DNA of 32,115 nt from Hellea sp. (lineage in GTDB: Bacteria; Pseudomonadota; Alphaproteobacteria; Caulobacterales; Maricaulaceae). Position 1 is the stretch's first letter. Each line of letters opens with the position of its first letter. The notes under the pieces are model-generated. The model saw only the letters and a list, made by a program, of their open reading frames with translations. It was not told the DNA's origin and searched no databases. Where the stretch lies: assembly GCA_023300105.1 (NCBI GenBank), contig JALZWM010000147.1:1-32115 (forward strand). Direction: 5' to 3'. The translations under genes were made by a program, and so were the position numbers. Positions 20,133 to 25,082 of this stretch are shown here, piece by piece.

Positions 20133-20321
20133 TTATTTTTTCGGGACAAATAAGAGATTTGCGGAGGATAAATCACGCTTTTTCTTGAGTAATTCCACTT
20201 CTATGCGTTTAACCTCTTCTTGGAGTCGCGCGATACGCGTTTCGAGTTCCGTAACCGAAACACCGTAGAGGTCATCCCCTATTGAAAACTTTGTTTCGCT
20301 TTGATGCATATCATCATTCAT
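20133..20321 (-). CDS. DUF1192 family small coiled-coil protein
   Basis: This 62-residue protein has an N-terminal acidic stretch with IGDDLYGVSVTELETRIARL, the DUF1192 core, then a charged helix of heptad-like spacing (about 22-52) and a short basic tail. The start at 20319-20321 has GGGGAG six bases upstream; the ATG at 20348 is in frame but lacks one. DUF1192 genes are commonly next to rcdA in Alphaproteobacteria, which suggests a linked role, but no function is established that I know of. The gap to rcdA is 99 bases. Confidence 0.85.
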   Translation of the reverse strand: MNDDMHQSETKFSIGDDLYGVSVTELETRIARLQEEVKRIEVELLKKKRDLSSANLLFVPKK

Positions 20322-20350
20322 AACCATCTCCCCTACCGCATTAAACATAC

Positions 20351-20379
20351 TTGCAAATTATGATTAACCGTCTTATATC
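20351..20379 (+). promoter_or_regulatory. Candidate promoter upstream of trcR
   Basis: TTGCAA at 20351-20356 and TATATC at 20374-20379 are separated by 17 bases. The spacer contains TTAACC (20364-20369), a CtrA half-site; the matching half (GCAA at 20353-20356) is poor. The start of transcription would be near 20386, about 100 bases before the trcR ATG and upstream of a terminator hairpin. Confidence 0.5.
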
Positions 20380-20420
20380 ATAGATATCGCGTAGGAAACG
20401 AGGGTTTTCAACCGACAATG

Positions 20421-20443
20421 ACCCCGCTAAGCGGGGTTTTTTT
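20421..20443 (+). terminator. Terminator/attenuator in the trcR leader
   Basis: CCCCGC-TAA-GCGGGG followed by seven Ts is a textbook intrinsic terminator. It lies only 45 bases upstream of the trcR start, with no upstream plus-strand gene to terminate for over 1 kb. A second perfect hairpin (AATGGCA-TAAC-TGCCATT) follows at 20444-20461. Either a short RNA of about 58 bases ends here, or trcR is controlled by attenuation. Confidence 0.75.
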
Positions 20444-20487
20444 AATGGCATAACTGCCATTTATAAAAGGCTAAAGAGAGGCCCGTT

Positions 20488-21165
20488 ATGACACAGATAT
20501 TAATGCCGAAAGCAACGGCTGTTTGGCTCATTGATAATACAGGCATGACTTTCAAACAAATCAGCCAGTTTTGTTCGCTACATATTCTAGAGGTCGAAGG
20601 TATTGCAGACGGCGATGTTGCTGCAGGTATCCGCGGAGCGGACCCCATTGCCAATGGTCAAGTTAGCCGCGAAGAAATTGAAAAAGCGGAAAAAGACAAA
20701 AATTACGCGATGAAGCCCAATATTTTCGACAGCGATAAGCTAGCGCCTAAAAAAGGGAAGAAAAAAGGTCCTCGCTATACACCACTCTCCCGTCGTCAAG
20801 ATCGTCCTGACGCGATTGCTTGGATTGTCCGTAATCACCCTGAAGTTTCAGATGCACAAATTTCAAAACTTGTCGGAACAACAAAACCAACAATCAATTC
20901 TATTAGAGAACGTACACATTGGAAAATAAGTACAATTAATCCAACTGACCCCGTCTCATTAGGGTTATGTTCGCAAATCGATTTAGATGGGCTCGTAAAA
21001 AAAGCGGCTGAGAAAAAAGCTAAACAAGATGCTAAAATAGCAAAAGAAACAGGCCAACCCTTAAAATCAGTTGAAGATGCTACCGCTCAAGTACCTGCGC
21101 CAGAAGAACCAAAAACTGAGCATACACTTGAGAGCCTCTTTAAGCCCTCTGAACCAAATAGCTAA
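20488..21165 (+). CDS. trcR: Cell-cycle transcriptional regulator TrcR (DUF1013)
   Basis: This is a 225-residue DUF1013 protein. The N-terminal half begins MPKATAVWLIDNTGMTFKQI with an HTH-like region (about 4-60). A second DNA-binding-like segment follows: RPDAIAWIVRNHPEVSDAQI, then SKLVGTTKPTINSIRERTHW (about 105-145), with the look of a helix-turn-helix (VGTTKPTINSIR). NPTDPVSLGLCSQIDLD is a family hallmark, and the tail is Lys/Ala- and acidic-rich. Alphaproteobacterial annotation names this family the cell-cycle regulator TrcR; its regulon is poorly known. AGAGAGG lies six bases before the ATG. It is divergent from DUF1192-rcdA and sits behind a terminator-like hairpin. Confidence 0.88.
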   Translation: MTQILMPKATAVWLIDNTGMTFKQISQFCSLHILEVEGIADGDVAAGIRGADPIANGQVSREEIEKAEKDKNYAMKPNIFDSDKLAPKKGKKKGPRYTPLSRRQDRPDAIAWIVRNHPEVSDAQISKLVGTTKPTINSIRERTHWKISTINPTDPVSLGLCSQIDLDGLVKKAAEKKAKQDAKIAKETGQPLKSVEDATAQVPAPEEPKTEHTLESLFKPSEPNS

Positions 21166-23908: not shown

Positions 23909-24985
23909 ATGCCATCAACACATCAATCACCGCTTCAGCCAGGAAGTACAATTGGAATATTGGGTGGTGGACAATTAGGCCGCATGTTAAACTTAGCCGC
24001 GGCACGGCTTGGCTTTCACTGTCATATTTTTGATCCAGAATGGGCTAGTCCTGCTGCTAAAGTTGCTCAGTTTGAAACCAACGCGAAATATGAAGACATA
24101 AACGCCGTATTGAATTTTGCTAAAACTTGCGATATCGTCACCTATGAATTTGAAAATGTTCCAAGCCTAACCGCAAAAACAGCAGGAAGTGCGGCTCCGC
24201 TTCACCCCGGCGCACGGGCGTTAAATGTTGCTCAAGACCGCCTAACCGAAAAAAACTTTATTCAAAACGAAGCCAAAGTTCCCGTCGCACTTTTTCAAAG
24301 CGTCGACTCAGTGCATGAACTTCGCCGAGCTATAAAAAAGCTTGGTTTGCCCGCTGTTCTAAAAACACGCCGTATGGGGTATGACGGCAAGGGTCAGTTC
24401 ATTCTAAACTCTGAAGAAGATATAGAACCCGCATGGGCCGCTATGCAAAACGCGCCAGCTATTTTAGAGCAATTCGTTGACTTCAAACGTGAAGTTTCTG
24501 TAATAGCAGCCCGTAGTACCACGGGCGAAATCGCGGCCTACCCTTTAATTGAGAACCAGCATAAAAATCACATCCTCCATACGAGCACAAGCCCAACAAC
24601 TGGCGATGATGGCCGAGCCCAAGCTCTAGCTATTCAAATCATGAATTCATTGAGTTATGTCGGCGTGATGGCAACTGAATTTTTTGAATTGCACGATGGA
24701 AGTCTTGTCGTAAATGAAATTGCACCGCGTGTTCATAATTCAGGTCACTGGACTCAAAATGCTGGGTGCGTCGATCAATTTGAACTTCATATCCGCGCCA
24801 TTGCAGGCTGGCCTTTGGGGAAAACACAGCCAAAACATAAAATGCAGATGACCAACCTTATCGGAAATGATATAAATAGCTTGCCGATTTATGCAAAAGA
24901 AAAAGATTGCTTTATTCACCTCTACGGAAAGAAGGATATCAAGGCGGGCCGTAAAATGGGACACATAAATCGTATTATTGTATAA
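23909..24985 (+). CDS. purK: 5-(carboxyamino)imidazole ribonucleotide synthase
   Basis: This 358-residue ATP-grasp enzyme converts AIR, bicarbonate and ATP to N5-CAIR. The N-terminal GSTIGILGGGQLGRMLNLAA (about 12-31) is the PurK Rossmann-like motif. LPAVLKTRRMGYDGKGQF is the ATP-grasp hinge, ILEQFVDFKREVSVI lies in the ATP site, and EIAPRVHNSGHWTQNAG holds the metal ligands. It starts without any gap after purE. The stop codon is part of the strong terminator hairpin that begins at 24985. Confidence 0.97.
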   Translation: MPSTHQSPLQPGSTIGILGGGQLGRMLNLAAARLGFHCHIFDPEWASPAAKVAQFETNAKYEDINAVLNFAKTCDIVTYEFENVPSLTAKTAGSAAPLHPGARALNVAQDRLTEKNFIQNEAKVPVALFQSVDSVHELRRAIKKLGLPAVLKTRRMGYDGKGQFILNSEEDIEPAWAAMQNAPAILEQFVDFKREVSVIAARSTTGEIAAYPLIENQHKNHILHTSTSPTTGDDGRAQALAIQIMNSLSYVGVMATEFFELHDGSLVVNEIAPRVHNSGHWTQNAGCVDQFELHIRAIAGWPLGKTQPKHKMQMTNLIGNDINSLPIYAKEKDCFIHLYGKKDIKAGRKMGHINRIIV

Positions 24986-25021
24986 ATAGCAGCATTAATA
25001 ATACATATTAATGCTGCTATT
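24985..25021 (+). terminator. Terminator hairpin of purEK
   Basis: A perfect 16-base-pair stem (24985-25000 with 25006-25021) closes on the five-base loop ATACA and is followed by TTTATTATT. The stem starts at the last base of the purK stop. The T tract is interrupted, but the length of the stem makes termination or 3'-end protection likely. Confidence 0.8.
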
Positions 25022-25082
25022 TTATTATTCATTACAAGTAATTTAATCGCGCCGCCTCTTTAAAATATGTATATTGCGCAAG

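Follow-up and report, generated by a model that had tools for sequence, protein, structure and literature searches.

A conserved terminator hairpin and 5' helix in the predicted leader of trcR in Hellea and related Caulobacterales

Introduction

The closest described systems to the locus reported here are leader RNAs of other alphaproteobacteria. UpsM precedes mraZ and the dcw genes in Rhodobacteraceae (Rhodobacter), and read-through of its terminator was measured at about 1 in 100 (PMC5089854). In Sinorhizobium, the terminator in the metA leader limits the gene without a predictable antiterminator (PMC9373788). TrcR of Caulobacter crescentus is reported as RNA-polymerase-associated in passages of two papers that cite Delaby 2021 (PMC12864828, PMC10754441), and belongs to the same protein family (PF06242) as the trcR product analysed in this study. 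No description of leader control of trcR, or of how TrcR itself is controlled, was found in the literature searched, to which the TrcR discovery paper (Delaby 2021) did not belong.

The stretch of DNA analysed (32,115 nucleotides in full; referred to as the window) was from a Hellea-like genome (order Caulobacterales), the nearest named relatives of which are Hellea, Litorimonas, Algimonas, and Robiginitomaculum. Its GTDB family (f1; hereafter the family) also includes Maricaulis, Marinicauda, and Hyphobacterium, and many of the relatives compared were metagenome assemblies. Nearly all genomes other than G426 gave one TrcR match; G426 gave two (contigs C58 and C56), which may reflect either a duplicate of the gene or contamination of the assembly (5%).

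Organization of the trcR locus

The following features were assigned in the window:

20133 to 20327, minus strand: gene for a DUF1192 protein (64 aa), the divergent neighbour upstream of trcR
20351 to 20379, plus strand: leader/trcR promoter, with -35 element TTGCAA (20351 to 20356), a 17-nt spacer, and -10 element TATATC (20374 to 20379)
20386 to 20443, plus strand: predicted short leader RNA, about 58 nt long, between the predicted transcription start and the end of the T-run
20387 to 20415, plus strand: P1, the 5' hairpin, with core GGAAAC/GUUUUC at 20394 to 20409
20420 to 20443, plus strand: P2, an intrinsic terminator with an 8-bp stem, 3-nt loop, and 7 T
20476 to 20481, plus strand: GAGAGG, a Shine-Dalgarno-like sequence of trcR
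20488 to 21165, plus strand: trcR coding sequence (225 aa; PF06242 TrcR, hmmscan E value of 3e-62)

The next gene beyond that for the DUF1192 protein, upstream of trcR, encodes a DUF1465 protein. The preliminary description of this DNA had noted that no plus-strand gene lies upstream of the terminator, and we agree: P2 terminates no upstream gene because the DUF1192 neighbour is divergent. The leader DNA of trcR was present as a single copy in the genome.

The promoter-like pair previously proposed at 20351-20379 was found there, and its -35 type was kept in relatives. Since its score against the consensus (8/12) was below the threshold of 9, this promoter was missing from the promoter scan of the window. 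A -35 element of the C-TTG[CT] type was found at the right place upstream of P2 in 32 of the 34 clade leaders, compared with 13% in shuffles; its usual distance to P2 was about 69 nt. From the spacing to the -10 element, transcription of the leader is predicted to start at approximately 20386. Neither a full CtrA site (1/34 leaders) nor a CcrM site (GANTC; 8/34 leaders) was retained as a part of the promoter.

An intrinsic terminator ahead of trcR

The P2 hairpin, GACCCCGC-TAA-GCGGGGTT, occupies 20420-20438 and the T-run 20437-20443. A terminator located 45 nt before the ATG of trcR, as had been proposed, was thus present and was also conserved in the family. A loose terminator scan of the window yielded 14 sites against 12.1 in shuffles, and because this was no better than chance, a strict rule was adopted and applied to 21 stretches (432 kb) of the window genome and related genomes. 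By this rule, terminators were rare, with 36 counted over both strands. Of the 80 genes whose neighbour is divergent, just 3, trcR among them, carried one on their own strand between -130 and 0 relative to the start. Elsewhere in the window, a 17-bp AT-rich hairpin with a T-rich tail was observed at 24984-25022, right at the stop of a purK-like gene.

The bases following the T-run, typically AATGCCTnAATTT, also trail other terminators in these genomes, and P2 was marked as a terminator because its tail matches these genome-typical tails. The same likeness accounts for the tempting conserved ATG after the T-run (AATGCC): a small ORF starting there was rejected, the ATG being terminator sequence and no start codon. 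The motif TTTAAT, as a promoter lying inside the terminator, was judged by eye only, the scored range being too short to include it, and was not retained.

The preliminary description had staked its proposal on conservation of the hairpin in relatives. Each of the 35 family genomes with an identified trcR had, ahead of this gene, a GC hairpin followed by a T-rich tail (31 strict, 3 relaxed, and 1 with a bulged stem). The distance from P2 to the ATG was approximately 21-78 nt in the family and just 27-32 nt in several Hellea leaders. The sequence of the stem varied while pairing was kept; among 18 distinct leaders, one pair was found as C-G, G-C, and A-U, and two-sided change in P2 was limited to this pair.

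A second conserved part: the 5' hairpin P1

P1 had been overlooked in the preliminary description. Nearly every leader contained a hairpin between the predicted start and P2, with a different sequence each time. Against dinucleotide shuffles, the mean z-score of the P1 region was -2.33 (34 leaders), while that of the region 40 nt further upstream was -0.35; the reverse complement of the P1 region also folded fairly well (-1.66; 34 leaders). In the window, the leader at 20386-20443 had a predicted folding energy of -22.8 kcal/mol (z of -3.38 against shuffles). Since the sequence of P1 was saturated with change, its alignment in the clade was difficult, and 21 Maricaulis-type leaders, which align well at both the start (AAATC) and the linker (GTCGG), were used as the covariation set. 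In these leaders, 96.6% of the cells in the P1 and P2 helices jointly were paired, and 41 two-sided changes were counted (13.2 in shuffles and 10 or fewer in slid versions); five of the six P1 pairs showed two-sided changes. Within the window's own genus, the change in P1 was one-sided only (A-U/G-U), and the strong claim of covariation belongs to the Maricaulis-type leaders, whose compensatory changes indicate that P1 is an RNA helix under selection. Taken together, the alignments identify the promoter, P1 (as a helix), and the P2 terminator as conserved parts of the leader.

A stable GC hairpin with a T-run thus lies between a promoter and the start codon, as in a leader terminator of the UpsM kind. 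The leader terminator probably yields a short structured RNA and throttles trcR. The promoter about 100 nt ahead of trcR would drive a short leader containing first P1 and then P2; transcription would start at around 20386, P1 would fold as it emerges, and P2 would form next. Most polymerases would halt at 20441-20443, freeing a structured transcript about 58 nt long. The trcR mRNA would be the product of the fraction that reads through, by which the terminator would throttle trcR, as for UpsM and mraZ, and the level of read-through may be constant or may depend on a factor that acts on RNA polymerase. We infer the start site, termination, read-through, and throttling from this arrangement. 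The preliminary description had offered either attenuation or an RNA of about 58 bases, both of which follow from the same anatomy, a leader terminator on the transcription path of trcR. That terminator stands and the RNA of about 58 nt is predicted, while the classical switch was not borne out (see below).

The released RNA may instead be the main product, that is, a trans-acting small RNA whose gene precedes trcR, read-through into trcR being a by-product. This is possible, albeit unlikely. Two stable hairpins, an own promoter, and the single genomic copy would suit such an RNA, as would the linker GTCGGAAGCCCAAG, well conserved in Maricaulis, and leader RNAs for which action in trans is assumed or considered possible have been described in other alphaproteobacteria (UpsM, PMC5089854; RZ/RA1, PMC9373788). 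However, there was no conserved unpaired seed across the family, substitutions had saturated P1 and the linker within the clade of the window, where structure alone was kept, and the leader was always tied to trcR.

Hairpins before trcR in other bacteria

In Caulobacteraceae, Hyphomonadaceae, and Phycosocius, a P2-like hairpin, GCCCGGCC-GAAA-GGYCGGGC, was found at the same place, followed by about 7 bases and then GTTTC. It lies at the predicted 5' end of the trcR mRNA, directly downstream of the -10 element, and mostly lacks a T-run; leaders L028, L031, L058, and L069-L108 (Caulobacteraceae/Hyphomonadaceae) had it with no terminator tail. The hairpin before trcR in C. crescentus is GCCCGGCCGAAAGGCCGGGC. 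When a covariance model of this hairpin was applied to Caulobacteraceae and Hyphomonadaceae genomes, trcR was the best site (approximately 40-63 bits), and other sites scored about 36 bits or less; one outlier of 48 bits, in the Maricaulis-type genome G018, was apparently a bidirectional hairpin. A repeat element was rejected as the source of the leader hairpin, with trcR scoring best in this order-level model and the leader DNA being single-copy.

Because these Caulobacteraceae and Hyphomonadaceae hairpins have no T-run, termination may not be the only or first role of the P2 hairpin. An alternative reading is that P2 is mainly a hairpin of the trcR mRNA, common to Caulobacterales and serving 5'-end stability or protein binding, to which the T-run of the window's family is secondary. 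The GNRA-type loop, the spacing of about 7 bases, and GTTTC at the predicted mRNA 5' end, together with the top rank of trcR in those genomes, are consistent with it, and the G-U pairs and GNRA-type loops suggest an RNA rather than a DNA operator. We nevertheless consider it doubtful: the hairpin of the window's family looks in every respect like a terminator, down to its genome-typical tail, and the homology of the two types is based on their position and one short motif. The TrcR tree favoured neither a gain of the T-run in the window's family nor its loss elsewhere.

Outside Caulobacterales, a strict terminator was found in 1 of 63 regions upstream of trcR, far upstream and placed as for the preceding gene. 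In leaders L230-L240 (family f42, with a TrcR of the MTQILMPKA type), the ribosome site was closely preceded by two hairpins, GGTCAAG..CTTGACC and GACGGGG..CCCCGTT, which had no T-run and were altered yet paired in a second genus. In the trcR leaders of two other alphaproteobacteria (L081 and L190), the -10 element was closely followed by the same CGGCCCCTCAGTGAGGGGCCG hairpin.

A possible promoter after the terminator

If trcR had a second promoter after the terminator, P2 would end a separate short RNA, or an antisense RNA to the DUF1192/DUF1465 genes, and insulate trcR. In the window, TTTTAA-16-TATAAA lies between the T-run and the ATG; its TATAAA (20462-20467) speaks against the leader-terminator reading, has a weak -35 element, and could give a trcR start at approximately 20474. 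In another leader (L018), TATAAT was found in this interval. On the other hand, most of the 34 leaders had no candidate there, only four showing a promoter-like pair of 8/12 after the T-run, and the conserved promoter sits upstream of P2. The distances of 27-32 nt between P2 and the ATG in several Hellea leaders leave little room for another promoter, as do gaps of 28-34 nt in relatives. We therefore regard this explanation as quite improbable, and prefer P2 as a terminator within the trcR leader.

Switch models

In the preliminary description, GGGT at 20402-20405 was proposed to pair with ACCC at 20421-20424 and exclude the terminator stem, and an 11-codon ORF (ATG at 20418, TAA at 20451-20453) to melt it upon translation. 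Both are present in the window at these positions, but neither was conserved. In the closest relative, L003, the GGGT run is replaced by GAGTGTT and the ATG by ATA; L008 has no such run, and most relatives have lost the ATG, an ORF from an ATG through P2 being found in only 14 of the 34 leaders. The ATG in the window is not preceded by a Shine-Dalgarno sequence. Furthermore, a conserved antiterminator was not supported because the leader was complementary to the P2 arm to no greater degree than shuffled leaders were (mean z of -0.24 in 34 leaders and -0.14 in 21 leaders); in Maricaulis, pairing between the P2 arm and GTCGG was likewise no better than in shuffles. The second perfect hairpin described at 20444-20461 was seen in the window, but was broken in L003 and absent where the gap from P2 to the ATG was 27-29 nt, and was set aside as local to the window genome. 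A classical attenuator, whether based on hairpins that exclude each other or on translation of a leader ORF, is, accordingly, highly improbable.

A search of the leader against Rfam found no family or riboswitch above the curated score, and the best sub-threshold matches reached 13-21 bits against gathering scores of 56-99.

Discussion

On the preferred reading, the trcR leader is a novel example of a familiar type of RNA element and has no Rfam family. Since TrcR is reported to associate with RNA polymerase, feedback of TrcR on its own terminator is a natural idea: TrcR would set the read-through of its own leader terminator, and P1 would be the part of the RNA sensed by the TrcR-polymerase complex. 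Autogenous loops through the transcription machinery occur in some termination and elongation factors. We put forward this extension tentatively, and consider it improbable. Independently of it, the conserved leader terminator is a concrete and easily tested control point for a polymerase-associated cell-cycle regulator, and the leader represents a new family of structured RNAs in Caulobacterales. With the two-hairpin leaders of family f42, structured leaders of trcR may extend beyond this order. The position that holds a terminator in one family holds a hairpin of non-terminator type in Caulobacter-like bacteria, in which genetics is easy.

Comparison with known leader RNAs

TrcR of C. crescentus is the product of a gene preceded by the Caulobacteraceae hairpin without a T-run, unlike that of the window's family. 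In ribosome-mediated (trp-type) attenuators, a terminator is located before the first gene, as at trcR; however, the trcR leader differs in having no conserved leader ORF or antiterminator. RA1 and RZ of metA and metZ in Sinorhizobium meliloti (PMC9373788) are small RNAs produced by leader terminators, like the predicted trcR leader, but carry SAM-II riboswitch aptamers, whereas the trcR leader has no Rfam match. The trcR leader is not UpsM itself, being shorter (about 58 versus 206 nt) and preceding trcR instead of mraZ/dcw. The terminator of UpsM lies 84 nt before mraZ, and the trcR leaders comprise approximately 58-80 nt with two hairpins; the gene and family differ, no shared sequence was shown, and UpsM has been measured whereas the trcR leader is predicted. 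In spite of these differences, a riboswitch-like alternative pairing is unconserved in both, and both precede a conserved cell-division or cell-cycle gene. The own promoter, intrinsic terminator in the leader, short RNA, and expression of the gene via read-through in UpsM (PMC5089854) form a layout to which that predicted for trcR is alike.
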